From: Spartobacteria bacterium
GTDB taxonomy: Bacteria; Verrucomicrobiota; Verrucomicrobiia; Chthoniobacterales; Chthoniobacteraceae
Assembly: GCA_025355595.1 (NCBI GenBank)
Contig: JANXZI010000459.1
Coordinates: forward strand, 1 to 42,571
Direction: 5' to 3'
DNA: 42,571 nt
Under the pieces are notes generated by a model, which worked only from the letters and a program-made list of their open reading frames with translations, ran no database searches and was not told where the DNA came from. Made by a program: the position numbers and the translations under genes. Below, piece by piece: positions 1-30,345 of the stretch; the first letter of the stretch is position 1; each line of letters starts with the position of its first letter.

Positions 1-185
1 CCATGCGCAAACTCCGCTCCTCGGTGCTCGCATTCGGAGAACTGCACGAGCCGATGCCAGTCGCGGCCTGATGCCTCTTCCACTTCGCGCGCGACCAAAG
101 CGCCTGCCATGCAGCGCCCTCGTTTGAAGTTTGACGTTGCCTGCTTATCCGGTTGCTTGACAATGGACGGCAAGTGGAAGGTTCC

Positions 186-334
186 GAAAATAGCCCAGTG
201 CTTCAGCACTGGGAAAAGGGCCAGAAAAAAGGCGACAAGTCCCGCAAGGGACGGCAGAATGGTTCTTCCATCCCTTGCGGGACTTTATTTTCTTCCTTCG
301 ACGGTCCCCAGCGCTGAAGCGCTGGGCTATTTTC
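186..334. repeat. REPIN-like paired palindromic repeat
   Basis: Hairpin cccagtgct-tc-agcactggg (194-213) and hairpin cccagcgct-ga-agcgctggg (307-326) lie in inverted orientation. They are flanked by gaaaatagccc/gggctattttc, with tcccgcaaggga / tcccttgcggga in the middle. Confidence 0.85.
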
Positions 335-412
335 AATGCAGCCTGCCTTCCGCAAGCGCGATGTCAGGCAACCGGTTAAGCATGCAACTTTGCAGCCTCG
401 CTGCCTGCCTGC

Positions 413-1816
413 TCAGACCAGCCCCTTGATCGGCTGTCCGCCGGTCACGGCATCCACGAGGTTTTTCGGCAGGCCGTCCATGAGGCGCACTTCGCCGGTG
501 TCGAGGAGCGTGTGCATGATGGTCGCCATGAGGTCCGGGATCGTCACGGGGTCCGACGCGGGCTCGCCGCCGTTGCGCGTGGACTGGCCGATGACGCGGC
601 CCATTTTCAATCCGCCGCCGTAGAGCATGAGCGGGCCGAGCGCGCCCCAGTGATCGCGGCCACCCTTTTTATTGATCGTCGGCGAACGGCCCATCTCGCC
701 GCAGCACACGAGGAGGATTTTTTCGCTGAGGCCGCGCGACTCGATGTCCTCAATGAGCGTCGAGACCGCGTGGTCGAATGGCGTGCCGACATAGCCCATG
801 CCTTCGGTGAGCGTGGCGTTGTTGTTATCCGCGTGCATGTCCCACACGAAGCTCGTGGTAACGGTCACAAAGCCCGCGCCGCGCTCGCAGAGCCTGCGCG
901 CCATGAGCAGCAGCTTGCCGAGGGTCTGCGCGTGGTCGCCGTAGTGAAGGTGGTTATTCCACTTTTTGCTGATGCGATCACGCGGGACGAGCGCCGCGGT
1001 ATCGTAGCGGGCGATGAGTTTCGCATCCTCGCGCGAGAGATCGAATGCGCCGGAGACGCCGCCGAACAGCGTGTCGAACGCCTGCTGCTGGATCGCGCTG
1101 TAGCCTTCCATCACGTTTGTGGTGTCCACGCGCCTGCGCCATTCGTCGAGCGAGGCGAGCAGGCCGCGGCGGTCATTCACGCGCTCCTGCGGGAGGTGAA
1201 GGGCCATGTCGTCCTGCATCCCGCCGCCAGCGCCGGGGACGAAGGGCGCGTACGCCGCGCCGAGATCGCCGGAGGAGGTGAAATTGCCGAATTTCGAAAT
1301 GGCAGGCCCGGCATCCGTGCTCACCGCGCGGGGAAAGAGCGCGACATTCGTGGGCATCGTCGTGTCGGGCCGCAGCGGGCCGGCGACGCGCGCGTAAAGC
1401 GAGCCCATGTTGGCGCCGAGCGTGGCCTTGCCGACGATGGTCTTGATGTCGTGGTTCGCGTCGCCGGGCACGAATGAGCGCACGATGCTGAACTTGTCCG
1501 CGAGCTTCGCGAGCTTCGGAAATGTGGAGCCAAAGGTGATGCCGGGAATCGCGGTTTTGATCTCGCCGGTCGCGCTGCGCGTCCCGTCGGGCGCGTCCAT
1601 TTTCGGATCGAACGTCTCGAATTGCGACGGCCCGCCGTGCATGAAAAGGAAGATCACCGACTTGTCTGTGACGGGAAGTTTCGCCGCCTTCGCCGCGGCG
1701 CGCGCGGCGAAAAGATCGGTGAGCGAAAGTCCGCCGAGCCCGAGGCCGCCGACACGGAGAAATTCGCGGCGGCGCATGTGTGCACCGCTGCGGATGGTGT
1801 TTTGGAAGGAGAGCAT
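413..1816 (-). CDS. DUF1501 domain-containing protein with twin-arginine-like signal (MRRREFLRVGGLGLGGLSL)
   Basis: 467-aa ORF. N-terminus MLSF...RRREFLRVGGLGLGGLSL and motifs FLFMHGGPSQFETFDPK and CCGEMGRSPTINKKGGRDHWG are typical of DUF1501. Confidence 0.9.
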   Translation of the reverse strand: MLSFQNTIRSGAHMRRREFLRVGGLGLGGLSLTDLFAARAAAKAAKLPVTDKSVIFLFMHGGPSQFETFDPKMDAPDGTRSATGEIKTAIPGITFGSTFPKLAKLADKFSIVRSFVPGDANHDIKTIVGKATLGANMGSLYARVAGPLRPDTTMPTNVALFPRAVSTDAGPAISKFGNFTSSGDLGAAYAPFVPGAGGGMQDDMALHLPQERVNDRRGLLASLDEWRRRVDTTNVMEGYSAIQQQAFDTLFGGVSGAFDLSREDAKLIARYDTAALVPRDRISKKWNNHLHYGDHAQTLGKLLLMARRLCERGAGFVTVTTSFVWDMHADNNNATLTEGMGYVGTPFDHAVSTLIEDIESRGLSEKILLVCCGEMGRSPTINKKGGRDHWGALGPLMLYGGGLKMGRVIGQSTRNGGEPASDPVTIPDLMATIMHTLLDTGEVRLMDGLPKNLVDAVTGGQPIKGLV

Positions 1817-1872
1817 GGGGCGGGGAAGGTCGCGGGCGGCGGACAGTTCACCACGCGGCGGCAGGGTTTCTT

Positions 1873-2040
1873 AGAGGGTGTAGGAAAAGTCGGATTTGGG
1901 ATGCAGAGGCGCGGAGGGAAAAAGAGGGTTCCGCAGCGGGAAATTACGAAATTCCTCCGCGTCCCTCCCACTTTTCCTCCGCGCCTCTGCGTTGAAATAC
2001 CGCGCTTCATCCCGAAAAATGGACTTTCGGCACACCCTCT
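1873..2040. repeat. Nested imperfect inverted repeat
   Basis: Outer arms agagggtgtaggaaaagtcggatttggg vs reverse complement agagggtgtgccgaaagtccatttttcggg. Inner arms share gcagaggcgcggagg. Confidence 0.8.
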
Positions 2041-2194
2041 TTGGGTGGGTGGCGGAAGTGGCGGCACGTCCACGCAACGTGGAAGATGCGCCCGACGCAC
2101 TCTCGGAACGATCAAAGGTCTGTGTCCCGCGCGGATTGTCCGACGCGGGAACGACCGTTCCCATTTCCAAATTCCAAACCACGACAACCTACCC

Positions 2195-2710
2195 ATGAAA
2201 AAATCCATCCTCGTCCTCATCGCCACCAGCGCGCTCGCCACTTTTGCCAGCGCCGAAACTTCCGTGAAAATCTCCGGCGTCCATCTTTGCTGTAATAGCT
2301 GCGTCGTCGGCGCGGAGAAGGCGGTCGCCAAGGCCAAGGGCGCGACTGCGACCGTGGACAAGGATGGCGGCACGGTGACAATCACGGGTGCGGACAAGGC
2401 CGCCGTGCAGTCGGGCGTGGATGCGCTCGTCAAGGCGGGCTACTTCGGCAAGAGCGAGAGCAGCGATGTGACGCTCAAGGACATCAGCGGCGCGAAGGAC
2501 GGCAAGGCCGCCAAGATGACCGTGGGTGACGTGCATCTCTGCTGCGACAAGTGCGCGACCGCCGCGAAGAAGGCGCTCGCGAAAGTGAAGGGCGTGACGG
2601 GCGACACCGCCGCGAAGAAGGTCACGTCATTTGAAGTGACGGGCGACTTTAGCCCGAAGGAAGTCATGGCCGCGCTCCAAGCCGCCGGCCTCACGGGCAC
2701 GGCGAAGTAA
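2195..2710 (+). CDS. Secreted protein with two HMA-like (heavy-metal-associated) repeats
   Basis: 171 aa, signal peptide MKKSILVLIATSALATFASA. Two repeats: VHLCCNSCVVGAEKAVAKAKG and VHLCCDKCATAAKKALAKVKG. Confidence 0.8.
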   Translation: MKKSILVLIATSALATFASAETSVKISGVHLCCNSCVVGAEKAVAKAKGATATVDKDGGTVTITGADKAAVQSGVDALVKAGYFGKSESSDVTLKDISGAKDGKAAKMTVGDVHLCCDKCATAAKKALAKVKGVTGDTAAKKVTSFEVTGDFSPKEVMAALQAAGLTGTAK

Positions 2711-2737
2711 GCATCGCTGCATCCGCAGAAAATCTCA

Positions 2738-2776
2738 GCCGGGAAGCGGGACGCACTCCTGCTTCCCGGCTTTTTG
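2738..2776 (+). terminator. Rho-independent terminator downstream of the HMA-like gene
   Basis: Perfect 10-bp stem gccgggaagc / gcttcccggc followed by tttttg, 28 bp after the stop codon. Confidence 0.9.
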
Positions 2777-2798
2777 TTTTCGGAAGCGACCGGATTGG

Positions 2799-2902
2799 GA
2801 ACCACAAATGGACACGAACCGACACGAATAAGATCCGGATCGCGCAAGATCTGCTGATGGATGACGGGCGCGTCTCGCCCCATTCGTGTCCATTCGTGGT
2901 TT
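2799..2902. repeat. Inverted repeat with short direct repeats in the arms
   Basis: aaccacaaatggacacgaaccgacacgaat vs reverse complement of attcgtgtccattcgtggtt. Confidence 0.75.
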
Positions 2903-2993
2903 CCGTCAGCGCGCCCTTTTTTCAGGATGCGGGCAGCTTGGCGGAATTCCTAAGTGGCGTGGCGCGGCGCGGTGGTTTAGGACTCACGCACTC

Positions 2994-4109
2994 ATGTCCA
3001 GCATCGAACATTCCGATCCCATCAATTCGCAAATCCTCGCCGTGTCGGAGGACAAGATCGCCGGCTTCGTGCGCGAGCCGTTTGTCGAGATCGCGGAAAA
3101 ATGCGGGCTGCCGCTGGAGACTGTTTTGGATCGCATCAGGACGATGCTCGCCGCCGGGACGATCCGCCGTGTGCGGCAGACGCTCGTCGCCAGCAACCTC
3201 GCCGAGGGTGCGCTCGTGGCGTGGCAGGTGCCGGAGGAAAAGCTGAACGATGCATTCGATTGGATGTTTCAGAATGATCCATTCAGCGGGCACGTCGTCG
3301 TGCGCAGCACGGACAATCAGACGACAGGCAGCGCCTACCGGCTGTGGACGACTTTGAAAACGCCGACGGGCACAAACATGGAGGAGCACGCGCGCGTGCT
3401 CATGCGCCACACGGGCTGCACGAAATTCAAGCTCATGCCGGCGAAGGGAATCTTCGCGCTCGGCGTCGGCCATGTGCGGCGGAAGGTGATCGAGCCGGGC
3501 GACAAGTCGGACGCGCTCGCAAAGATGATCCGCGTGGGCATCGTGAAGCTCACCGATCTCGAATGGGAAATTCTGCTCGCGCTGAAACGGGAACTTTCAC
3601 TCGACGAAATTCGCACCGGTCTCTGGGCGACGCGCGCCGCGGAGGCGGGCGTGGATCTGGAGACGTTCTGCCGCGTGGCGGAAGACCTCAACGCGCGCCA
3701 GGTCATCGGACGCTTCTCGACTTTCCTCGAACATGTAAAGCCGAGTGCGACGGGGCAGCGTGTGACGAAATTCAACGCGCTCTTCCACTGGCGCGTGCCC
3801 GCGGGTCGCGAGGTCGAGGCAGGTGGCGAAGTGGGACGGCATCCCATCCTCACGCATTGCTACTGGCGCGAAGGCGGGCCGGATTTCAACAATGTGAACA
3901 TCATGGCCGTGTGCCACGGGACGGAGAAGGATCGCGTGTTCGCACACAAGGCGGCGATTGATGCACACCTCGCGAGCATCGGCATCCCGGTGGATTACAC
4001 GAATGTGTTCTGGGGCGGGCGCAGCGAGATCAAGCCGAGCGAAATCTCGCCGAAGCTCCATCGCGAGTGGCTCGCGAAATACGCGGGCGCGGAGCCGGTG
4101 ATGGCGTAG
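2994..4109 (+). CDS. AsnC/Lrp-like protein resembling a fused siroheme decarboxylase (AhbA-AhbB / NirDL type)
   Basis: 371 aa with two tandem HTH plus AsnC-like modules: PLETVLDRIRTMLAAGTIRRVRQTL, then LNARQVIGRFSTFLEH. The C-terminal THCYWREGGPDFNNVNIMAVCHG resembles siroheme decarboxylase subunits. Confidence 0.7.
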   Translation: MSSIEHSDPINSQILAVSEDKIAGFVREPFVEIAEKCGLPLETVLDRIRTMLAAGTIRRVRQTLVASNLAEGALVAWQVPEEKLNDAFDWMFQNDPFSGHVVVRSTDNQTTGSAYRLWTTLKTPTGTNMEEHARVLMRHTGCTKFKLMPAKGIFALGVGHVRRKVIEPGDKSDALAKMIRVGIVKLTDLEWEILLALKRELSLDEIRTGLWATRAAEAGVDLETFCRVAEDLNARQVIGRFSTFLEHVKPSATGQRVTKFNALFHWRVPAGREVEAGGEVGRHPILTHCYWREGGPDFNNVNIMAVCHGTEKDRVFAHKAAIDAHLASIGIPVDYTNVFWGGRSEIKPSEISPKLHREWLAKYAGAEPVMA

Positions 4110-4113
4110 GGAA

Positions 4114-4203
4114 AGTGCTCAGTGCTCAGCGCTCAGTTCACAGTGCTCAGTAGAAGCATGCTGCTGCCGACAACGGAGCACTGAGCACTGAGCACTGAAA
4201 ACT
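4114..4203. repeat. Inverted cluster of cagtgctcag/ctgagcactg direct repeats
   Basis: agtgctcagtgctcagcgctcagttcacagtgctcag ... ggagcactgagcactgagcactgaaaact. Confidence 0.85.
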
Positions 4204-4275
4204 CACGAAGGCCGCCCGCCTGGACGGGACAATTTCCACGCTGGCTTGTGGTGCGGATTCTGCGAAGGAGGGCGC

Positions 4276-5172
4276 ATGTTCACCCGCGCATTTCTTGTCC
4301 TCTGCCTGTTTATCTCCACACTCACCGCGGCGGAGTTGCACGAGATCCGGCTGCTGCGTCCGGTGAAGGCGGGCGACCGTTTCGACGTGTCGGCCAAGGT
4401 CGCGTATGAGGACAGGATGAAGACGACTTTTGACGGCAAGGAAGTGGAGTCGAACGAAACGATCATGGCATGCCGGATGACGGGTGCGCTCACCGTCGTG
4501 GCCGTGACGAAGAAGGGCCTGCCGAGCGCGCTGAAGCTGAAAGTGAAGACCGTCGAGTGCATCCACGCCGGGCAGCGGGCGGATTTTTTCAAGGAAGGCG
4601 ACGAGCTTTCCCTCCGCCGCGACGAGCCGGAAAACGAGTCACAAGTGAACGGCGAGGCCGCGGACGATTTGCAGGCGCAGATCATCGAGTCGCTGCTGAA
4701 CGTGCAAGCGGAGGACGAGGTGAGCGACGAGGACATCTTCGGCACAAAGGACAAGGTCGCGGTGGGCGCGGTGTGGCCTGTGAATGCCAAGGCCGCGGTG
4801 TCTTCGCTCGAGCGCAGTGGGGTGTCGGGTCTCGATCCGAAAGGCGTGAGCGGTCATGCGAAGCTCGTGACGCTGGGTGAATTTGAAAAGCAGCCGGCAT
4901 TTTTTGTCCACATGGATGCAAAGATTGACGGCAAAGGCGTGACGCTCGCGAACCTGCCGGAAAACGTGAAGGGAAAGAAATTCCACTCTGAATATAACAT
5001 CGAGATGGAGGTGCCCGTGGACCCGGTCTCGACTGCCGGGCGCACGAAAGGCATGGCAAAGATGGAGGTGGAGGCCGAGGGCACCGAGGAATTCGACGGG
5101 AAGAAAATCGCGGTGGCGGTGAAGATCGATCGCCGCGTGGCGAGTGAGATCACGGCGATGCCGGCGAAGTAG
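4276..5172 (+). CDS. Hypothetical secreted protein
   Basis: 298-aa ORF with signal peptide MFTRAFLVLCLFISTLTAAE; no recognised domain. Confidence 0.7.
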   Translation: MFTRAFLVLCLFISTLTAAELHEIRLLRPVKAGDRFDVSAKVAYEDRMKTTFDGKEVESNETIMACRMTGALTVVAVTKKGLPSALKLKVKTVECIHAGQRADFFKEGDELSLRRDEPENESQVNGEAADDLQAQIIESLLNVQAEDEVSDEDIFGTKDKVAVGAVWPVNAKAAVSSLERSGVSGLDPKGVSGHAKLVTLGEFEKQPAFFVHMDAKIDGKGVTLANLPENVKGKKFHSEYNIEMEVPVDPVSTAGRTKGMAKMEVEAEGTEEFDGKKIAVAVKIDRRVASEITAMPAK

Positions 5173-5178
5173 GCGGGC

Positions 5179-5283
5179 AGTGCAGGATAGGCATCCTGCC
5201 TGTCCCCCGGCGTGCGATGGCACGGGGCGTCCGAATTGCGGATACTTGGCTTCCATTCGGGACAGGCTGGAAGCCTGTCCCAC
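5179..5283. repeat. REPIN-like pair of hairpins between convergent genes
   Basis: gcaggat-agg-catcctgc hairpin on the left and perfect gggacaggct-gga-agcctgtccc hairpin at 5259-5281 on the right. Confidence 0.8.
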
Positions 5284-5325
5284 ATTGGCCTGTCGCATTT
5301 TTACCGCGACGGGTTCTTCGAGCCG

Positions 5326-6039
5326 CTATTTTTCCACTTCCTCGATCTCGAGATACGACGGCTTCGGATCGACGCTCCTGCCGTGTGAACTCTCGATGCG
5401 CATCTGCTTCAGCATCCAGTAGCCTTCGCGCTTCATCACGCTCGTGACCATGAAGCGCCGATCCCACTTGCCGGCGGCGTCGAAGCTCTCGGCCTTCATC
5501 AGCGCGCCGTCCTCGCGCCCGATCCAGAGGATGACGCGCGCGTATTGCGAGTCGTTGGGTCCGTCGGGACGCACCTCCACTTTCCAGCAGCGATGCGCGG
5601 AAATCATATCGCCGCCGAGGACTTTTGCGTCGTGCCAGTAAATGAAACGCAGCGCGAGATCCTCGTAGCTGATCTCGGTGTCGTGGACCGGCGCGCCCAG
5701 CTTCGCCCCGGTGACACGCGTGGTCTTCCCGCCCTTTGTTTCCTCAAGAGTGGATGTTTTCTCCCCGAGGCGGAGCGTGAGCACATCGCCGTTGTCGGTG
5801 AATTGATAGCGGATGACGCCTTTCTCCAGCGTGAGTTTGAACGGGATTTTTTTTCCTCCGGTGCGGATGCGCCCGGCAAGTTTCCAGTCTTGCGACGACT
5901 GCGCGATGCGGACGGACTTCAGCAGTTCCAGCGCGGAAGGCGGATCGTCCGCGGCGGAGCACGGCGAAGGCGCGAGGACGGACGCGACCGCGAGGGAGGC
6001 GGCGGCGAGGATGCTCTTTACACGAAAGGGTGTGACCAT
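5326..6039 (-). CDS. Outer-membrane lipoprotein-sorting-like (LolA-fold) secreted protein
   Basis: Signal MVTPFRVKSILAAASLAVASVLAPSPCSAAD. Downstream FIYWHDAKVLGGDMISAHRCWKVEVRP...MVTSVMKREGYWMLKQMRIES is typical of this family. Confidence 0.65.
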   Translation of the reverse strand: MVTPFRVKSILAAASLAVASVLAPSPCSAADDPPSALELLKSVRIAQSSQDWKLAGRIRTGGKKIPFKLTLEKGVIRYQFTDNGDVLTLRLGEKTSTLEETKGGKTTRVTGAKLGAPVHDTEISYEDLALRFIYWHDAKVLGGDMISAHRCWKVEVRPDGPNDSQYARVILWIGREDGALMKAESFDAAGKWDRRFMVTSVMKREGYWMLKQMRIESSHGRSVDPKPSYLEIEEVEK

Positions 6040-6066
6040 AGGCTCGCCAACCTTCGCCAACGCCGG

Positions 6067-6705
6067 ATGGATCAAAAGCTACTTTTTCTCATCAACCGTG
6101 AATGGACCGGGCCGGTGCTGGATCGCGTGATGGTGATGCTGTCGAGCTCAGCGCTGTGGAAATGGCCGTTCATCGTGCTGCTGCTCGCCGTGCTCGTGCG
6201 CGGCGGATTCCGTGCGCGGGCGTTCATCGCCGTCACGCTGGTGGCGGTGCTGCTGTGCGACACCCTCGCGGGCTACGGGATCAAGCGCACCGTGAACCGA
6301 CTGCGTCCGCACGAGAGCGAATTCGGCGTGCGGCAGCTCTCGCTCGCGTATCCGCCGTCACGCGGGATTTTCCAGCCGGTGCAGGAAGTGATTTCACTCG
6401 GGCTTACCGCCGAGGCGGCGGGCCGTTCGTTCCCGTCGAACCACGCCGCAAACACCGCGTGCGTCGCGCTGCTCACCGCGATCTTTTTCCGACGCATCGG
6501 CTGGCTCGCATTTTTTCCCGCGCTGCTCGTCTCGTACTCGCGCGTGTACACCGGCTCGCACTGGCCGAGCGATGTGCTCGGCGGCATCGCGCTCGGCCTC
6601 GGCATGGCCATGCTCACGCTGCTGCTCGTGGAGGCTCTCTGGCGGCGATGCGGCGCGCGTCTCTCGCCCGCGCTCGCCGCGCGCCATCCTTCGCTGCTCG
6701 CATGA
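6067..6705 (+). CDS. PAP2-family phosphatase
   Basis: PAP2 motifs KRTVNRLRP, SFPSNHAANTA and SRVYTGSHWPSDVLGG. Confidence 0.92.
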   Translation: MDQKLLFLINREWTGPVLDRVMVMLSSSALWKWPFIVLLLAVLVRGGFRARAFIAVTLVAVLLCDTLAGYGIKRTVNRLRPHESEFGVRQLSLAYPPSRGIFQPVQEVISLGLTAEAAGRSFPSNHAANTACVALLTAIFFRRIGWLAFFPALLVSYSRVYTGSHWPSDVLGGIALGLGMAMLTLLLVEALWRRCGARLSPALAARHPSLLA

Positions 6706-6711
6706 GGCCAG

Positions 6712-6899
6712 TGGAGAGTGGAAAGTTGAAAGTTGAGAGGCGGCGGAATCCTGTCCGCAGGCCTCCGGGGCGCATTCCATTTTGTTCCTGCGAACCGGTG
6801 GTGTTCGCTGCGCTCGACCACCGGCTGGTTTCCATCAGCCCACCGGGATGTCACGCTGACCTCATCCGCCTCTCAACTCTCAACCCTCACCTCTCAACC
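6712..6899. repeat. Composite inverted repeat with an inner palindrome
   Basis: Outer arms agttgagaggcgg (left) / ccgcctctcaact (right). Inner palindrome ccggtggt...accaccgg at about 6795-6824. Confidence 0.75.
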
Positions 6900-6904
6900 C
6901 GCCG

Positions 6905-8707
6905 ATGAACTTCCGCCTCTTCGCCTCGCTCATCGTCCTCACCGTCCTGCGGCTCGTGTACATCGGCAATGTCGGCCTGATGCCCGATGAGGCGTACTAC
7001 CACGAGTGGAGCCAGCGGCTCGACTGGTGGTATTTCAGCAAGGGCCCCGGCATCGCGCTCATCATCCGCGCGGGCACGGCCCTGTTCGGCCACACGGAAT
7101 TCGGCGTCCGCTTTTTCGCGCCGCTCTTCGGCCTCGGCACCACGCTGCTCGTCCACTGGCTCGCGCGGCGAATCTACGACGGACGCACCGCATTCTGGAC
7201 CGTCGTGGTGATGTGCGTTTCGCCGATCTTCAACGCGGGCGCGATGCTGATGACCATTGACGCGCCCTCCATCTTTTTCTGGGCCGCATCGCTCTGCACG
7301 CTCTGGCTCGCGCTGGAAAAAAGCCCGGCCTTCTCGTGGTGGTGGGTGCTCACCGGGCTGCTCACCGGCCTCGGCTTTCTGTGCAAAATGACGAACGCCG
7401 CGTTCTTCGCGTCCGTCCTCCTGCTGCTCCTGATGACTCCGCGCTACCGCGCCGAACTCATCGGGCGCGGATTTTGGGCGATGATTTTCGTGTTCATCCC
7501 ATTTCTCGTCCCCGCGGCGCTGTGGAATGCCGCGCACGGCTGGCCGACGACCACGCACCTCGCCGCACGCGGCGGGCTCGGCGAGGCGTGGTGGAATTTC
7601 AACTTCCCCGCATTCGGCGAATTCGTCGCCCTGCAATTTGGCGTCCACTCGCCGCTGATTTTTTTCACGATGATGATGGCACTCGTCGCGGCCACCGCGC
7701 CGTCCTTTGGCCGCTGGTTCGTCGCCACCACGCGCTCGATAGCGAGCCTGCCCTTCACCCTCCGTTCCTCGTGGGTGGGCTGGGCTCTGCTCGCAGTGGG
7801 GCTGCTCGGGCTGTGGATGGCCGGAAATTTTTTCGAGCGCACCGGGTTTTACCTCGCGGCAAAGCTCCTCGCCGCGCTGGTCGCGATCATTTTCATCGGC
7901 ACCCACAAGGACGGTCCAAACATCCAGTGGAAATCGCGCTTCCTTGGCGCCTTCGCGCTGCCGATCTTGATCGGCTACACCTGGATCGCGCTGCACCACA
8001 AGACGCAGCCAAACTGGACCGCGCCCGCCATCGTCTCGCTCGCGGTCCTCGCCACTTCGTACGGGATCGATCGCGTGCTGCGCGGCGTGCGGGGCGCGCG
8101 CGGCTTCACCGTCGCCGCCCTCGCGCTGGGCGCGCTCATCACCATCGTGATGGCCAATACCGACCTGTTGCGCGCCATCGGCATCCCGCTGAAATACTCG
8201 GGCAGCGATCCCAGTGCGCGGATGCGCGGCTGGCGCGACGTGGCGAACGACGTGGCCAAATTTCGCGCCGTGATCGAGGCCGAAAGCGGGCAGAAAACTT
8301 TCCTCATCGCGAACCACTACGCCACCGCCGCCGAGCTGTGCTTTTACCTCCCGGAAAAACGCATTGAGGCACCCGGCCATCCCGCCGTGTATGTCGCCGA
8401 GTCGCCCGTCGCCGAGAACCAGTTCCACTTCTGGGGCCGCTACGACGAATACGAAAAACGCGAATCCCCTGTCGCCAACCCTCAGACCGACTCCGGCGAA
8501 TACGGCACGAGTCGCTTCGCCGGCCGCACCGCGATCTACGTCACGGACAACCCGCTCGAAACCGCCCCGATGGATCCGCTGTATCGAACCTTCGCGAAGT
8601 GGAAGTGGAAGACCTCTTTCGAATACTCCGGGCGTCGCGACCTCCCGCTGCGAAAAATCCACGTCTTCCTCCTCTACCGCTACCAGCCGGGAAAGCTGCT
8701 GGACTGA
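6905..8707 (+). CDS. Glycosyltransferase family 39 (ArnT-like) membrane protein
   Basis: 600 aa, multi-TM. N-terminal MPDEAYYHEWSQRLDWWYFSKGPGIALIIRAGTALFGHTEFGVRF matches GT39 architecture. Confidence 0.88.
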   Translation: MNFRLFASLIVLTVLRLVYIGNVGLMPDEAYYHEWSQRLDWWYFSKGPGIALIIRAGTALFGHTEFGVRFFAPLFGLGTTLLVHWLARRIYDGRTAFWTVVVMCVSPIFNAGAMLMTIDAPSIFFWAASLCTLWLALEKSPAFSWWWVLTGLLTGLGFLCKMTNAAFFASVLLLLLMTPRYRAELIGRGFWAMIFVFIPFLVPAALWNAAHGWPTTTHLAARGGLGEAWWNFNFPAFGEFVALQFGVHSPLIFFTMMMALVAATAPSFGRWFVATTRSIASLPFTLRSSWVGWALLAVGLLGLWMAGNFFERTGFYLAAKLLAALVAIIFIGTHKDGPNIQWKSRFLGAFALPILIGYTWIALHHKTQPNWTAPAIVSLAVLATSYGIDRVLRGVRGARGFTVAALALGALITIVMANTDLLRAIGIPLKYSGSDPSARMRGWRDVANDVAKFRAVIEAESGQKTFLIANHYATAAELCFYLPEKRIEAPGHPAVYVAESPVAENQFHFWGRYDEYEKRESPVANPQTDSGEYGTSRFAGRTAIYVTDNPLETAPMDPLYRTFAKWKWKTSFEYSGRRDLPLRKIHVFLLYRYQPGKLLD

Positions 8708-8795
8708 AACGACACCGTTGGAACCGATGCACCCAAATCCGCCGTCCAAAATCGCGAGGCCGTCGCGCCCGGATTGAGAGCACGGGGCAAACTCG

Positions 8796-10448
8796 CTACT
8801 CGATCATCTCGCCCCACACCCGCTCCTCAAGCTGAAGGGCGGCGTCACTGAGATCGCTGCTCTTGAATTTTTCGTATTGCGCGGAGACGTCGCTCCACGC
8901 GCGGACTCGCAACTTCACACGGTCGCCGGGACGCAGGCTCGCGGCGCGAGTCCATTTTTGCGCAAGCATGGACCAGGTGCAGACCAGGGCCTGCGTGGCA
9001 TCGGCACCCTCGATGTCCACGAGGTGCGCGGTGAGGATGTGCTCCGCGTAGGGCACGGTGCCGGGACGCGGGACGCTGGAGATCGCGGCGACGGTACCGG
9101 TGACGGTCTTCCACTCGCCGGGCTGTGGGTTAAAAAATTTCGACGGCTGCGGCGTGCCGAGATCGAGCGGGAGGAGTTTCCAGTCGCCGATGGCGAGTTC
9201 GCGCGTGGCGAATTCCCACACGACGATCTTTTTTCCGGCGAGGCGGTCACGACCGCGCGCGAGTTCGCGCTGCAAATGGTCACGCGTGGCGAAGGAGCCG
9301 TCGCTGTTGCGGAGGATGCAGTCGAGCGGCTGGCCGAGCGCGCGGCTGAGGTGCTCGGCAAATCCGGCGGCCTCGCCCCAGCCCATCGCTTCGAGCGAGA
9401 AGATGTTCGCAAAGCTGTCGCCGAGGAGCAACACGCTCGCATCGGTGCTCGGACGCCACAGGCCGTTGCCGGCGGGGACTTGGTGAATCGTGACGGTCTG
9501 CGGACGGAAAAATTGCTGTGACTCCCCGAGGCCGAGCAGACCGGCGATGTCGCCGAGAGCGGAAATTTGCCTTTCGGTCACGGGAGTTTCGACAGCGGGG
9601 CCGGGCTGGATTTTCGCGGCGAGTTTTTGCGCGATGAATTCCATCGCCTCGGGCCGCCAGTGGGTGTCGGTCTCAAGATATTGCGGCGCGGTTTTGCGCG
9701 CGAGGAGCAGTGGTGTCGGATCGAACACGCGCACCTTTGCGCTCGCGAGACGTGCGAGGAATTCCGGGTGGGAGACATTGTGCAGCGCGGTGGCCGGGCG
9801 TGCACCGAGCTTGTCGCCCTCGATGCACGGCTTCACAGGCATGGGCATGACGATGAGTTCGATGCCGCGCTTCGCAAGCTGGTCGCGGAAATGCACGATG
9901 CCCTTCACCGGGTCGGGCTGGATGTGCGCGTCGTGCGCGCGCTGCCGGAGCCGCGCGGGGTCGAGGAAGGCCGGACCGGTGATGTATTCCACGTCGCTCC
10001 GGTAAAAGAGCCATCCGTCGCGGCCAATGGAGGCCTGCTCGGTGCCGCTGTGCAGCATTCCCGTGAGCACGCCCTGCACGCGCGGACGCAGCGCCTTGGC
10101 GATGACGGACTGCTTTTCGAGATCCTTCTCCGCGGCCTTGATGTGCTCGGCTTTCGGAATCAGCTCCCAAAAATCCGAGGCCGATCGCGCGGCGCGAATT
10201 TTTGCCGCTGACGGCAGCACACCGGGCATCTCGAAGATGGGTTGCCGCGCGACGATCTGCGCAGCGATCACCGCCATGATCGTGAGCAGGAATGCCACGA
10301 TGAGCAGCGGGCGCGCACCGGGTGAAAAATCCGTGCGGCCCAGCGCGAGTTCGGCCTCGTCCTCGCGCGACATTTTGCGCTTCGTCTCGGGCGTCGGCTC
10401 GCCGTAGCTCGGCAGCGAGTGCTCGGGTGGTGTCGGCGGTTTGCTCAT
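8796..10448 (-). CDS. AlgX/AlgJ-like SGNH O-acetyltransferase-type protein
   Basis: 550 aa. N-terminal TM, DGWLFYRSDVEYITGP, ETDTHWRPEAMEFIAQ and LLLGDSFANIFS motifs. Its start overlaps the MBOAT gene stop (TGATG). Confidence 0.82.
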   Translation of the reverse strand: MSKPPTPPEHSLPSYGEPTPETKRKMSREDEAELALGRTDFSPGARPLLIVAFLLTIMAVIAAQIVARQPIFEMPGVLPSAAKIRAARSASDFWELIPKAEHIKAAEKDLEKQSVIAKALRPRVQGVLTGMLHSGTEQASIGRDGWLFYRSDVEYITGPAFLDPARLRQRAHDAHIQPDPVKGIVHFRDQLAKRGIELIVMPMPVKPCIEGDKLGARPATALHNVSHPEFLARLASAKVRVFDPTPLLLARKTAPQYLETDTHWRPEAMEFIAQKLAAKIQPGPAVETPVTERQISALGDIAGLLGLGESQQFFRPQTVTIHQVPAGNGLWRPSTDASVLLLGDSFANIFSLEAMGWGEAAGFAEHLSRALGQPLDCILRNSDGSFATRDHLQRELARGRDRLAGKKIVVWEFATRELAIGDWKLLPLDLGTPQPSKFFNPQPGEWKTVTGTVAAISSVPRPGTVPYAEHILTAHLVDIEGADATQALVCTWSMLAQKWTRAASLRPGDRVKLRVRAWSDVSAQYEKFKSSDLSDAALQLEERVWGEMIE

Positions 10449-11923
10449 CAGAATATGAAATAGATGAACGGATTATATTCCTGCGTGGCGAGGACCACCA
10501 GCGCGAGCCAGCCGAGCGCGATGCACACCGCGGCCTTTCCGAGCGTGATGCGCTGCGTCCAGTCCCACGTCTGCCGCCCCGCCCAGATGACGATCGCGGC
10601 GAGCACGAGCGCGAGGAGGAGATACGGCTGGAAGAGCACGCCGGAGATGAGCCGCGCGCCGTCGGGCAGCGCGCGCGCACCAAACATGTCGGCGAGATAG
10701 CCGAGCGCGCGCGGCAGATCCGCGGCGCGGAAAAATACCCAGCCGAGCATGACAATCACAAACGTGACGCCGATGCGGAACGGGCGAGGGAGACGCTTGT
10801 AAAAATTCTCGCGTCCGGCGGCGCGCTCCGCGGCGAGCATCCCGCCGTGGATGCCGCCCCAGATGATGAAATTCCACGACGCACCGTGCCACAGGCCGCC
10901 GAGCAGCATCGTGATCACGAGATTGAAATAGATACGCGCTTTGCTGCCGCGGTTGCCACCGAGCGGGATGTAGAGGTATTCGCGCAGCCAGGTGGAGAGA
11001 GAGATGTGCCAGCGCCGCCAGAAGTCGGTGATCGATTGCGCGCGATACGGCGCGTCGAAATTTTTCGCGAAGATGAAGCCGAACATGAGGCCGAGGCCGA
11101 TGGCCATGTCGGAGTAGCCGCTGAAGTCGAAGTAGATCTGGAATGAGTAGCCCGTCGCGCCGACCCACGCCTCGAGCGGGCCGCGCGAGAGCGCATCGAA
11201 GGCGGTGTCGGCGATCTTTCCGCACGGGTTCGCGAGGAGGATTTTCTTCGCGAGGCCCATGAGGAAGAACGCCGCGCCGCGCGCGAATTTTTCACTCGTG
11301 AGCGTGCGCTGCCGGAGCTGCTCGGCGAGGAAGGAGAACTTCAGGATCGGCCCGGCGACGAGGTGCGGGAGCATTGAGACGAAGCACGAGAAGTCCACGA
11401 AGTTGGCCATCGCCTTCGCGTCGCCGCGATACACGTCAATGATGTAGCTGAGCGCCTGGAACGTGTAGAAGCTGATGCCGAGCGGCAGCACGATGCGCAG
11501 CGCGGGATCCCACTGCATGTGGCCGAGGCCGACCGAGCCGAGCAGCGCGTTGAAGGCTTCGAGGCCAAAATTGAAATACTTGAAAAAGCCAAGCGCGAGG
11601 AGATTGCTGACGATGGAGCCGAGCAGCGCGCGGTGCTGCGTTCGGCTGCGCGGTGCGCCCGGCACGAGGGTCGGCGCATCCTTTCCGCGGGCACGCCACA
11701 CGCGCCAGTCGTCGTGCGCGATCATGAGGCTGAGCAGCCAGTCGAGCGATGTCGTGACAAACATCAGCACGACGAAACGCGGCTCGGCCCAGCCGTAAAA
11801 AGTGTAGCCGGTGAGGACGAGCCACAGATTCCGCGCACGCTGCGGCGCGGGCTTCAGCAGGTAGTACCCGAGCAGCGTGAGCGGCAGGAAAAAATAGATG
11901 AAGATGTGCGAGCTGAAAACCAT
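10448..11923 (-). CDS. MBOAT family O-acyltransferase (AlgI-like)
   Basis: Starts MVFSSHIFIYFFLPLTLLGYYLL; DFWRRWHISLSTWLREYLYIPLGGNRG; catalytic-region GGLWHGASWNFIIWGGIHGG. Confidence 0.95.
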   Translation of the reverse strand: MVFSSHIFIYFFLPLTLLGYYLLKPAPQRARNLWLVLTGYTFYGWAEPRFVVLMFVTTSLDWLLSLMIAHDDWRVWRARGKDAPTLVPGAPRSRTQHRALLGSIVSNLLALGFFKYFNFGLEAFNALLGSVGLGHMQWDPALRIVLPLGISFYTFQALSYIIDVYRGDAKAMANFVDFSCFVSMLPHLVAGPILKFSFLAEQLRQRTLTSEKFARGAAFFLMGLAKKILLANPCGKIADTAFDALSRGPLEAWVGATGYSFQIYFDFSGYSDMAIGLGLMFGFIFAKNFDAPYRAQSITDFWRRWHISLSTWLREYLYIPLGGNRGSKARIYFNLVITMLLGGLWHGASWNFIIWGGIHGGMLAAERAAGRENFYKRLPRPFRIGVTFVIVMLGWVFFRAADLPRALGYLADMFGARALPDGARLISGVLFQPYLLLALVLAAIVIWAGRQTWDWTQRITLGKAAVCIALGWLALVVLATQEYNPFIYFIF

Positions 11924-12056
11924 TCGGCGATTGCGCAGGTGCGGACGCGCAGGCGCGGACGATGGGACAGGTGGCTTGCAAAATGGAAGTTGAAACCTGC
12001 GCAACTTTCGCTAGACGAAGCGGCCCTTGCGCGCGCCTGTCTCACCACTCCGATTC

Positions 12057-13067
12057 ATGAAATTTTCCGTCTTCCTAATCCTCGCCTGCTGCGCCGCCGT
12101 GACGTGCGCAAATGCCGGGCCTCCGCGCGCGGAATTTGGGGCGGCGTTTGCGGCGGCCGAGAAGGCGAAGGCGAGCGTCGTCGCGGGCACGGATGGCTGG
12201 CTCTTTCTTTCCTCCGAGCTGCGGATGCTGTCGTTCGATCGTTTCTGGGGGGACGCGGCGGCGAAGGTGAGCCGCTCGCCGAAACCGGACGCGGCGGATC
12301 CGATCCCGGCGATCGTGGATTTTCACACGCAGTTGAAGGCGCGCGGCATTCATCTGCTGCTCGTGCCAGTGCCTCCGAAGGCGGCGATCTACCCGGAGAA
12401 AATTCTTGGCGCAGCGGCGGAGGGATCGCTCGCACCGCTCACGGAATTTTACGCCGCGCTGAAAACGGCGGGCGTCGAGGTGCTCGACCTCGCGCCGCTC
12501 ATGCTCGCGGCGAAGACCGGCGAGCACGGCCCGGTGTTCTGCGCGACGGACACGCACTGGTCCGGCAGCGGCTGCGTCCTCGCAGCGCAGGCGATCGGAA
12601 AGGCCATCGGCGATAAGCTCCCGCTGAAACTGACCGCCAAATTTTCCACGGAATGGAAGACGCTCGCGATTCACGGCGACCTGCTCGATCTGCCCGGCGC
12701 GGGCGGCAAAGGGAAAGGCGATGAAAAAATATCGGTGCGATCCGTGAGCGGCGCGAGCGGCGCGGCGGTCGAGCCGGATCCCGCCAGCCCGGTACTGCTG
12801 ATCGGCGACAGCCACACGCTCGTCTTCCACGATTTTCTCGCGGAGCGCGCGGGCCTGCTCGACCAGCTCGCGGCGGAACTTGGCATCGCGCCGGATCTCA
12901 TCGGAACCAAAGGCTCTGGCGCGACCACGGTGCGCGGAAATCTTTTCCGCAAGAGCATCAAGGATCCCGCCTACCTCTCGAAGAAAAAGGTCGTCGTGTG
13001 GTGCTTCACCGCGCGGGAATTCACCGAGGCAGACTCCGGCTGGCAGAAGTTGCCGGTGGCGAAGTGA
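12057..13067 (+). CDS. Second AlgX/AlgJ-like SGNH protein, secreted
   Basis: 336 aa. Signal peptide, GTDGWLFLSSELRML, ATDTHWSGSG, LLIGDSHTLVFHDF. Confidence 0.82.
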   Translation: MKFSVFLILACCAAVTCANAGPPRAEFGAAFAAAEKAKASVVAGTDGWLFLSSELRMLSFDRFWGDAAAKVSRSPKPDAADPIPAIVDFHTQLKARGIHLLLVPVPPKAAIYPEKILGAAAEGSLAPLTEFYAALKTAGVEVLDLAPLMLAAKTGEHGPVFCATDTHWSGSGCVLAAQAIGKAIGDKLPLKLTAKFSTEWKTLAIHGDLLDLPGAGGKGKGDEKISVRSVSGASGAAVEPDPASPVLLIGDSHTLVFHDFLAERAGLLDQLAAELGIAPDLIGTKGSGATTVRGNLFRKSIKDPAYLSKKKVVVWCFTAREFTEADSGWQKLPVAK

Positions 13068-13085
13068 AAAAAATGCGCGGCACAT

Positions 13086-14702
13086 TTGCTGCGCAACCGA
13101 GCAAACAACTTGATTCGTGAGATGCAGATTCGTTTAAGGACACCAGTGGAGCACCCATCAACCGACCAACCCGCGCGACACGCGCACGACGCCGTGAGTA
13201 ACTGCACGCCCGGAGCACTCAGGCAATTCGCAGTGTGGGTGATGGCAGTATCGCTGATCATCGCGCAGGCGGCGACGGGGGCCCCGCGGCCCGTCGTGAA
13301 GAATTCCGGAGCCGACGAGGTGGCCGAAATCGGAATTCCAAAGGCGCGCGCGGTGTCCCTCCCAAAGACGGACTCGGCTTCCAAGTCCTCAAAAAAACAC
13401 ACCCCCGTGCCGCCGAAAGCCAAGCCGGTGCAGGACACTGCGAAGGCCAGGCCTCCGGGGAAAATAAGGCTCGGCGACGAGCAGTGGTTTGGCGCGGCCT
13501 CATCCATTGATCCCGTCACGGAGATCGCCGTCGCACTCACCATTCAGCTTCGCAAGACCGCCATCACCGCAGAGTCGGCACAAGGCCTCTCCGTGCTGAT
13601 CATCGGCGATTCGCTCAGCCTCTGCGGATTCGGGCAGCGCCTCGACGGACGCTTCCGGAAATCACCGCAGTTCAAATCCATCTACACCTACATGACCTGC
13701 GGCACCGTGCCCCTGAGCTGGCTGAAGGTGGGCGGCTACCCGAATGCGAAGACGTGCTGCGGGTTTTTCACCATCGAGTCCGACGAGGACGGCGGCTCAC
13801 CGATCATCCTCGAGGACACCTACGGCAACAAGCGCGGGACGAAACCGAAGCCGCATCAGGTCCCGAAGATCGAGGATCTGCTGGAACACGCAAAGCCCGA
13901 CATCCTCATCGTGCAGACGGGCACGAACTTCTTCGACCTTTTCACGGATGGAAAATCCATCAGCGCGGAGCGCCACGAGAGGGCCCTCAAGAGCCAGGTC
14001 GTCCCGTTCATGCGCGAGGTGCTGAAGACGCATTCGTCGCTGCGCAAAATTTATTGGATCGGCTCGCCCACCTCGGGCCGAGTCACGGCGGACATCCAGG
14101 ACTTTGTCTTCGAGCGATCCTGCAAGTTCACCGCCCCGGTGGCCACGGTGATCGATAGCCGCACGCTCATCACGTATCCATTCACCGGCCTGCAGCGGGA
14201 TCACGAACACTTCGGTGGCGCAGACATGAACCGCTGGGCCGACCGCGTGTTCGAGCGCGTGATGGGCGACCTCACCTTTCGCCCGCTGCCAGCGGTGATC
14301 ACCGCACAAGTCCCGGTGGAGGAGAAGTCGGCGGTGCCCAGCCCGGCCGCCGACGACAAGTCGATCTCGGTCAAAGCCAAACTCGCCTTCAAGTCGCCGC
14401 CGCTGCGCGTGGAGAAAATCCCGTACGGGGAGTCGTTGGTGGCTTACGTTTACGACGTCGTGCAGGTGCTGAAGGGCGATTACGCGGAACAGCAGATCCT
14501 CGTGATGCACCCTGCGCACATCCGGCGACAGGCGCAGTCCCTGAGCAAATACAAGATCGGCTCGACGTACGAACTTCGGGTGAAGGAGGTGGATGGAACG
14601 CCGTGGGCGACCACCAAGTCGAGCGACCAAAGCGAGCATCCCGAATTGCTCCACTTCATCCAAGTCGCGGACGAACGCAAACTGCCCTCCCGCGGCAAGT
14701 GA
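13086..14702 (+). CDS. SGNH/GDSL-type hydrolase-like secreted protein with C-terminal extension
   Basis: VLIIGDSLSLCGFGQRLDGRF, IVQTGTNFFDLF. Start uncertain (13086 or ATG at 13122). Confidence 0.72.
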   Translation: MLRNRANNLIREMQIRLRTPVEHPSTDQPARHAHDAVSNCTPGALRQFAVWVMAVSLIIAQAATGAPRPVVKNSGADEVAEIGIPKARAVSLPKTDSASKSSKKHTPVPPKAKPVQDTAKARPPGKIRLGDEQWFGAASSIDPVTEIAVALTIQLRKTAITAESAQGLSVLIIGDSLSLCGFGQRLDGRFRKSPQFKSIYTYMTCGTVPLSWLKVGGYPNAKTCCGFFTIESDEDGGSPIILEDTYGNKRGTKPKPHQVPKIEDLLEHAKPDILIVQTGTNFFDLFTDGKSISAERHERALKSQVVPFMREVLKTHSSLRKIYWIGSPTSGRVTADIQDFVFERSCKFTAPVATVIDSRTLITYPFTGLQRDHEHFGGADMNRWADRVFERVMGDLTFRPLPAVITAQVPVEEKSAVPSPAADDKSISVKAKLAFKSPPLRVEKIPYGESLVAYVYDVVQVLKGDYAEQQILVMHPAHIRRQAQSLSKYKIGSTYELRVKEVDGTPWATTKSSDQSEHPELLHFIQVADERKLPSRGK

Positions 14703-14728
14703 CCGCCCGCACGCGCCACGACCTTCCC

Positions 14729-15490
14729 ATGCCCAAGTCCTTCCGCCTTCTCCGCGTGCTGCTCGCCGCGCTGCTCCTCGCAGCATCACCCGTCGTGTCC
14801 GGCGCCGATCGCATCCTCATGATCGGCGACTCCATGACCGTCGGCGGATTCGGCGAGCAGGTTCAGGATTCGCTCGTCGCACGCTACGGCACGCAGAATG
14901 TCTTCGTGTATGGCTCATGCGGATCCTCGCCGCAGCACTGGCTCACGGCGGAGCCGCAGCACGTCACGAAATGCGGCTACCGCGAGCGGACGCCGCAGCG
15001 CACCATCGTCCTCGACTACAAGGAAGGCCGCCGGCCGCCGCCGGTCGCGACGCCGAAGATCGACCGCCTGCTCTGGATGCACAAGCCACAGATTGTCATC
15101 GTGCAACTCGGCACCAATTGGTTCGACGACCTGCTTGGGCGCGGCAGCGACGAGGAAATAAAGAAAATGGCGCAATCACTCGACCGCCTGGGCGCCTCGC
15201 TGCGTGGCCGGCAAGTGATCTGGGTGCTGCCGCCCGACTGCACAAAATTTCCGAAAAACGTGCAGGCCACGGTGCGCGCGCTGATCCTGCGCGCCGCAAA
15301 AATCTGGCGCTTTGAAGTGATCGAATCCCTGCCCCTCACGCACTACGTGAACGGACGGACCGGCAGCGATGGAGTCCACTACAACACCGACGAGGCGAAG
15401 GATTGGGGACGCGGAGTGATGAAGCAGCTCCAGAAAAAAATCCGCACGGACGGCGGGCCGCGCGTCTTTTTCTCCGACGACAAAGGGTAA
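14729..15490 (+). CDS. SGNH/GDSL-type hydrolase, secreted, divergent paralogue of the preceding gene
   Basis: Signal peptide MPKSFRLLRVLLAALLLAASPVVSGAD; ILMIGDSMTVGGFGEQV; IVQLGTNWFDDL; DGVHYN. Confidence 0.8.
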   Translation: MPKSFRLLRVLLAALLLAASPVVSGADRILMIGDSMTVGGFGEQVQDSLVARYGTQNVFVYGSCGSSPQHWLTAEPQHVTKCGYRERTPQRTIVLDYKEGRRPPPVATPKIDRLLWMHKPQIVIVQLGTNWFDDLLGRGSDEEIKKMAQSLDRLGASLRGRQVIWVLPPDCTKFPKNVQATVRALILRAAKIWRFEVIESLPLTHYVNGRTGSDGVHYNTDEAKDWGRGVMKQLQKKIRTDGGPRVFFSDDKG

Positions 15491-15546
15491 GCGCTCGGAG
15501 CCTGTCATCCTGCGGATGGCGAATCGGTTTTCGGTTTTGGCGGCTG

Positions 15547-15637
15547 TGATGGGTGACTGGCGAACAGTGACTGGTCTTTCGGATTTCACGGGGCGAACCC
15601 GGACGGCCACCAGTCAGTTTTCACCAGTCACCCATCA
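15547..15637. repeat. Inverted repeat between convergent genes
   Basis: tgatgggtgactggcgaacagtgactgg vs reverse complement tgatgggtgactggtgaaaactgactgg (28-nt arms, few mismatches). Confidence 0.85.
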
Positions 15638-15669
15638 CCGCCGCATCAACTGACCGCTGACAGGCAGCT

Positions 15670-16611: not shown

Positions 16612-16711
16612 CGCCGGCCATTCAAATTCCGCAATCCGCACTCCGCAATCCACATTCCGCCGCCACCCACAGCTATTCAAAAGTCAAAATCCAACATTCA
16701 AAATCCGGGAG

Positions 16712-16784
<73 letters not shown>

Positions 16785-16858: not shown

Positions 16859-17560
16859 ATGAGTGCGGCCCTGCCTGTGAAAACTTGGAACCCAACCCGT
16901 GTGCAAAATCTCGTCCGTCATAAATCGGGCAGATACTACGCTCGAATTTTCGCCAACGGCAAGGAGACTTGGAAAAGCCTCAAGACCGACATCCTTGAAG
17001 TTGCCAGGGTGAAGCTCCGTGAAATCTCCGGCTCCATCGAAAAAGCGGCTCACGCCGGCCACGCCGAGCAGCGCGAAAAAATGAAGATGGAAGACTGCAG
17101 AGTGATTTTCACAAACGGATCGACGACGGATTTGGTCTGCGCGGAAGGGGTAAGCTGATGCGCCGAATCGGCGAGGGCACCAAAACACAACCGCAAGCAA
17201 ACTCTCGTCGCCTTGCGGCGTTCATGGGCCGCACTGGCGGAAAAAAACGTCCGCAAGATTACCGAGCGCGAAGTCGGGGAGTGGGCGGAGTGTTTCGCGG
17301 CGGAATATTCTCTCACTCGCTACAACAGCACCCTCGATACGCTTCGCGCCTTGTTTGAAATCGCTGTTGCGGCCGGTGCTCGCACTGAAAATCCAGCCAT
17401 GCGCATTGGACGTGTCACCGTGAAGCAGAAGCAGCTTCCATTGCCCGAGCGGGAACATTCCGCGGATTTGTGAAAACCATCCTCAGCGCTGGCGCACGGT
17501 GCTCACGCTATGGCCCGACTTTATCGGAAAACTTAAAGCAATGTCTTCAGCCTGGGAGTT
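16859..17560 (+). pseudogene. Decayed tyrosine recombinase / integrase
   Basis: SGRYYARIFANGKETWKSLKTDILEVARVKLREI is an integrase N-terminal arm. After an in-frame TGA at 17156-17158 the same frame continues SWAALAEKNVRKITEREVGEWAE...YNSTLDTLRALFEIAVAAGARTENPAMRIGRV...LPEREH. It then shifts frame (VKTILSAGARCSRYGP) and no catalytic R..HxxR..Y region is recognisable. Confidence 0.78.
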
Positions 17561-17685
17561 CATTTCCCGACCGCAAATGCGCGGGAAAGCTAGCCCGCCT
17601 GCGATCCGCAGGGCGCAAAATCCCTCTGAATACGTTTCGTATAATCGGCTTCGCGACTTCTGCGTGAATCTAGTTCAACACGCGT

Positions 17686-30214: not shown

Positions 30215-30226
30215 GTCCATCTCTTG

Positions 30227-30333
30227 GGAATAATGTGATCCGAGCGCGAGCGGCGTGTCTCGCGTAGGGCAGGCGTCCCGCGTGCCGTCCAGCGCGTCCC
30301 GCGTGGCACCCCACGCCTCGGTCATATTATTCC
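30227..30333. repeat. Inverted-repeat-bounded element between convergent genes
   Basis: ggaataatgtgatccgag ... ctcggtcatattattcc, with internal direct repeats gcgtcccgcgtg. Confidence 0.75.
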
Positions 30334-30345
30334 TGCAAGATGGGC

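Follow-up and report, generated by a model that had tools for sequence, protein, structure and literature searches.

The inverted repeats in the intergenic gaps of the window, by which we mean the whole 42,571-nt stretch analysed here (contig C723 of G000, a draft genome of 4.78 Mb), are not locus-specific. Each gap contains members of at least one dispersed family, and the families fall into two architectural classes (Table 1). Class 1, which occupies gaps A, E and H as well as the gap F core, consists of REP/BIME (REPIN-like) elements, each family tied to a RAYT of the same genome; this is known biology. Class 2 elements (gaps C, D and G, the outer arms of gap F and probably gap B) have arms that are degenerate tandem arrays of a 7-nt (or ∼ 10-nt) unit, two arms facing each other across a spacer. 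We think it probable that the gaps hold inserted stem-loop elements, class 1 being RAYT-tied and class 2 being moved in hairpin form by a transposase of the Y1 type that acts in trans.

Inverted repeats in the gaps of the window

The whole window was scanned for ungapped inverted repeats (span ≤ 260 nt, score ≥ 14). Eight were found, every one inside a gap named by the preliminary description: 136-388, 186-334 and 237-285 (nested), 1903-1990, 2800-2901, 4114-4196, 6725-6884 and 15540-15644. The repeat at 5185-5280 scored 13, and that at 30216-30345 is imperfect, falls below the ungapped threshold and folds as a single long stem (z -5.5). Within the intergenic bases (4157 nt; gap limits set by hand because the automatic gene caller erred), nine inverted repeats reached a score of at least 13, compared with a mean of 0.05 and a maximum of 2 in 200 shuffles, and none at this score was present in 14.75 kb of coding sequence. 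The repeats at the named gaps are therefore real. The window together with 20 sampled contigs (167 kb) yielded 18 inverted repeats at a score of at least 14 (0.8 in shuffles), and 324 kb of G000 yielded 35. Genome-wide statements on G000 refer to pattern searches and to this 324-kb contig sample.

Table 1. Elements in the intergenic gaps of the window and the unpaired array.
Feature	Position	Description	Basis
Gap A	136..388	REP/BIME-type, nested; outer arms 136-162/362-388, REP pair 186-213/307-334, inner hairpin 237-285	Inverted-repeat scan
Gap B	1873..2040	Composite nested inverted repeat, CTCTGCG-like arms; class 2 tentative	Inverted repeat 1903-1990; fold z -7.0
Gap C	2797..2904	Array-arm element, ∼ 10-nt unit TGGACACGAA	Inverted-repeat scan; near-empty site in G003
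Gap D	4110..4205	Array-arm element, 7-nt unit AGTGCTC	Inverted-repeat scan; near-empty site in G003
Gap E	5175..5290	REP/BIME-type element GGACAGGCTGGAAGCCTGTCC	Inverted-repeat score 13
Gap F	6706..6904	Outer array arms, 7-nt unit GTTGARA, around REP-type core 6744-6865	Inverted-repeat scan; near-empty in G003
Gap G	15531..15653	Array-arm element, 7-nt unit GTGACTG; spacer common to other copies	Inverted-repeat scan
Gap H	30216..30345	REP/BIME-type element	Fold z -5.5
Unpaired 7-nt array CCGCAAT	16628..16660	Adjoins tRNA-Met 16711-16784	Period-7 run

The preliminary description had placed one repeat at 186-334, which is present but nested in the larger one. Its arms of short direct repeats were borne out, with the unit size corrected to 7 nt for most array arms and to 10 nt in gap C. 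The statement that no single dispersed element is involved holds only in the sense that several dispersed families exist; most of them recur elsewhere in the genome. A shared generating process had also been suggested, and we agree insofar as the repeats appear to be stem-loop insertions; the single process has to give way to two classes, RAYT-linked REP/BIME families and array-arm families. That description had named as contrary evidence a frequency no higher than in shuffled DNA, or arms that are dispersed repeats: the frequency is far above shuffles, and many arms are indeed members of dispersed families.

Gap B probably contains a class 2 array-arm element. A second copy was not found in the sampled DNA; CGCAGAGG arrays, which may be compared with gap B, adjoin long RAYTs in G032 and G026. 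An array related to the unpaired CCGCAAT run occurs at L031 16197-16231. An Rfam search returned tRNA only. Beyond the tRNA-Met, positions 17159-17685 of the window form a degenerate stretch that by eye resembles a decayed phage-integrase gene (putative).

REP/BIME families and their RAYTs

Class 1 arms are compact hairpins arranged as inverted pairs, and the elements are present as multiple dispersed copies, often paired in inverted orientation. G000 has six Y1_Tnp matches. Copies of gap A lie on both sides of the RAYT gene G000:C123:4594-4941, with further copies in L015 and L021. The gap F core gave 18 genome matches, including a pair that flanks the RAYT at C424:15688-16023. Related 32-39-nt copies of gap E flank the Y1_Tnp match G000:C622:4523-4747 on either side, and related copies of gap H do so at the match G000:C622:212-472, with others in L046 and L116. 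The flanking evidence is strongest for gap A and the gap F core; the matches are shorter for E and H. Pfam confirmed the C123, C424 and C622:4523 proteins as Y1_Tnp. As for the GT[AG]G motif at the hairpin foot, gap A has AATAGCC before the hairpin and GTAG occurs in some other G000 families, among the few families looked at.

A RAYT with flanking REPs is the arrangement called a REPtron (PMC3733652, PMC6006769), the paired units corresponding to REPINs (PMC3116915). Class 1 thus shares with the REP/BIME/REPIN and RAYT (TnpAREP) systems inverted hairpin pairs, many copies and the presence of several families that each have a RAYT of their own. By analogy with the literature, a single-stranded hairpin form of class 1 would be cut and rejoined by the Y1 enzyme. 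At L032 4169-5899 (G000:C622), a RAYT reading frame continues without a stop across a REP copy and on into the frame of a RecF/SMC-N-type ATPase, which makes an ORF of 576 aa.

Architecture and distribution of the array-arm elements

Among inverted-repeat arms with significant periodicity, the lag was 7 or 14 in 12 of 21, and 324 kb contained 19 period-7 runs as opposed to none in a shuffle. The arms face each other in every family counted in G000. AGTGCTC (gap D) has 15 loci with 11 facing pairs and none reversed; AATGACG has 30 loci with six facing pairs and none back-to-back. Among the matches listed, facing pairs numbered 20 for GTGACTG (gap G), 14 for the gap C decamer and 13 for GTTGARA (gap F arms), with none reversed, the reversed-pattern control being invalid for GTTGARA because its reversed unit gives nearly the same array. 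The five families sum to 64 facing and 0 back-to-back pairs (for three of them among the matches listed), and AATGACG in relatives adds 14 facing and none back-to-back.

Two conserved inverted arms with a less conserved spacer, the anatomy of a REPIN, are thus found in class 2. The spacers of AGTGCTC copies are unrelated to each other. In the GTGACTG family several copies share both the arms and a ∼ 33-nt spacer, so whole-unit copying is needed. Arms of two different families are paired at one locus in L111, L130 and L141. AATGACG arms commonly have 2-5 units, and their spacers usually start with AA and end with TT; a search for an outer motif beside the arms gave a purine preference at -1 as its only clear signal. 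Unit variants were mirrored between arms in 11 of 122 cases, compared with 1.2% in a cross-genome shuffle, a control that leaves genome-specific variants in.

Could the arrays have grown locally by replication slippage, with snap-back copying supplying the inverted arm and no mobile element involved? The degenerate tandem units, their variable number and the mirrored variant unit of a single element (L131) fit such a history. It has difficulty with a unit that recurs at tens of unlinked loci and in different phyla, with copies that share a spacer and with different-family arms paired at one locus, and we regard it as quite improbable.

The occurrence of AATGACG across phyla comes from a scan of one genome per species. 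At least 118 stretches with facing arrays were found, in MAGs as well as isolates. The scan pattern itself demanded facing order, and the scan is therefore uninformative on polarity. Verrucomicrobia (including Chthoniobacter flavus), Planctomycetes, Bacteroidota groups and Chloroflexi were among the labels of the matches listed; these phylum labels are the depositors' own, and the hit-rich 'Nealsonbacteria' bin may be mis-binned. In G055 the reversed control pattern AAGCAGTAAGCAGTAAG gave 175 + 198 matches, so another heptamer family is abundant in that genome.

Comparison with G003, a genome of the same genus (82-89% identical, collinear over 413-8703), revealed that gaps C, D and F correspond to near-empty sites there. 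At gap F, 13 nt in G003 stand against ∼ 205 nt in the window, and the G003 genes overlap as ATGA. Flank comparison showed G003 to be near-empty also at the class 2 loci L092, L139, L142 and L150. At L094 it carries a BIME-like insertion in place of the array-arm element, and at L131 a similar, more degenerate one. Since a same-genus genome has near-empty sites at these seven loci, the array-arm elements there behave as insertions; judged from these alignments, gain in G000 would be a simpler reading than loss in G003. Gap F shows a possible ATGA duplication that retains both the stop and the start codon, although G003 is too diverged for a clear call. No consistent target-site duplication was found at the other filled/near-empty pairs, again relative to the diverged G003. 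At the gap C position, G008, G024, G020 and G031 have inverted repeats with another unit length or sequence, and several other genomes have none.

Some elements lie within genes. In purM (L031 16190-17100, G000:C424), an AAGGATG array pair forms an in-frame insertion of 66 bp: the protein aligns to solved PurM up to PurM residue 237 and again from 242, with 24 query residues between. The N-terminal MSKNPQSAMRNPQSKK of the same protein is the translation of a CCGCAAT heptamer array. Rickettsia palindromic elements are small palindromic insertions that lie in frame inside protein genes, and the purM element resembles them in placement. AATGACG arrays also appear to be in frame within protein genes at L121, L124 and L131, the L121 gene being glycolate-oxidase-like by eye.

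Whatever their origin, the inverted repeats might be kept mainly as RNA structures at gene ends, either as bidirectional terminators or as stabilizers of mRNA 3' ends. All eight gaps fold very stably, far better than their shuffles (RNA z-scores -4.8 to -12.6), several repeats lie a few bases from a stop codon (4109, 5172, 6705 and 30214), and different inverted repeats fill gap C in different species. However, the terminator scan found a terminator-like T-rich tail only at the gap A hairpins, which leaves the bidirectional termination proposed earlier unsupported for the array-arm class. A better terminator, separate from the element, precedes gap C (2737-2771), and gap B lies between divergent genes. 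Together with the near-empty sites in the same genus and the elements within genes, these points make a mainly structural role unlikely.

Proposed mobilization of class 2 and relation to known arrays

No heptamer family was found to flank a RAYT/Y1_Tnp gene, either in G000 or at the 20 long RAYT loci inspected in relatives, a search that covered part of the Y1 genes. A RAYT bordered by copies of its own repeat, the mark of a REPIN, was thus not seen for the heptamer families of class 2 at the inspected Y1 genes. Array-like ends are present beside some long RAYTs (12-13-nt units in L004, 10-nt units in L382), and the long RAYT of L387 has inverted arrays on both sides; most long RAYT loci had no flanking inverted arrays, and none of the arrays found at long RAYTs had the heptamer units of the window. 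The long RAYT genes in L004 and L005 (G000:C588 and C285) have a CACAAAGGGA-type tandem or near-tandem array just upstream of the start codon, and the two loci share sequence between this array and the RAYT gene. In G016, which is 91% complete, facing AATGACG arrays were present and no Y1_Tnp match was found.

We also considered a telomerase-like reverse transcriptase that adds heptamers at both ends of a break, the ends then being joined with filler DNA that becomes the spacer. Such a model predicts what is seen: a facing polarity that does not vary, arm lengths independent of each other, spacers that are unrelated and loci that combine arms of different families. The RVT_1 search of G000 was empty, as were those of G001, G007 and G020, which also carry AATGACG arrays. 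The lack of an RVT_1 match in G000 and other carriers speaks against the model, and the spacer-sharing copies of the gap G family require whole-unit copying; we judge it very improbable.

We instead favour a Y1-type mechanism for class 2, because class 1 offers an analogy in gaps of the same kind, one family shows whole-unit copying and some long RAYTs have array-like ends beside them. Single-stranded hairpins would be recognized via their arms and moved in trans by the transposase, and spacer turnover and unit slippage would leave mainly the arms to persist. Class 2 is not filed here as REPIN: an inverted pair with a variable spacer is common to both, whereas class 2 arms are short-period arrays and the inspected Y1 genes yielded no cognate RAYT for the heptamer families. 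A broader proposal, possible though doubtful, is that the array-arm elements are a distinct, widespread kind of dispersing DNA, in which a facing pair of short-period (mostly 7 nt) arrays is inherited rather than a fixed sequence, with many unit families per genome, exchangeable spacers and the same unit across phyla, and which is moved by some enzyme.

Two systems described before resemble class 2. In Xanthomonas, facing arrays of the heptamer GGGAATC are degenerate and lie for the most part between genes, and each genome is reported to have 70-75 convergent pairs (PMC4692102). Class 2 likewise consists of degenerate 7-nt arrays in convergent pairs. In Xanthomonas, however, there is a single G-rich unit with quadruplex potential, and 90% of repeats lie between the same genes in two compared species (PMC4692102); here many non-G-rich units coexist in one genome, sites are near-empty in the same genus, and no quadruplex unit of the GGGAATC type was seen, AGTGCTC, AATGACG, GTGACTG and GTTGARA being without G-tracts. 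Intergenic direct repeats of the heptamer TAACTGA occur in Beggiatoaceae, cyanobacteria and Bacteroidetes (PMC4679880) and share with class 2 the 7-nt arrays and a scattered occurrence among phyla. They are nearly all direct, with one inverted repeat in the main genome (PMC4679880), whereas class 2 arms face. No account of the origin of heptamer arrays was found in the two papers (PMC4692102, PMC4679880). New here is that many unit families coexist in one genome and that the facing polarity is fixed from family to family; the near-empty sites, the pairing of arms from different families and the insertions within genes are likewise added.

Single lineages have been known for years to carry heptamer arrays, with no explanation of their origin. 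With many families per genome, filled and near-empty sites, fixed polarity and in-gene insertions, the genus studied here offers a tractable system, in which the RAYT-linked REP families of neighbouring gaps provide an internal standard for class 2. If class 2 has an enzyme of its own, it would constitute a mobile-DNA system of several phyla that has so far been undescribed.
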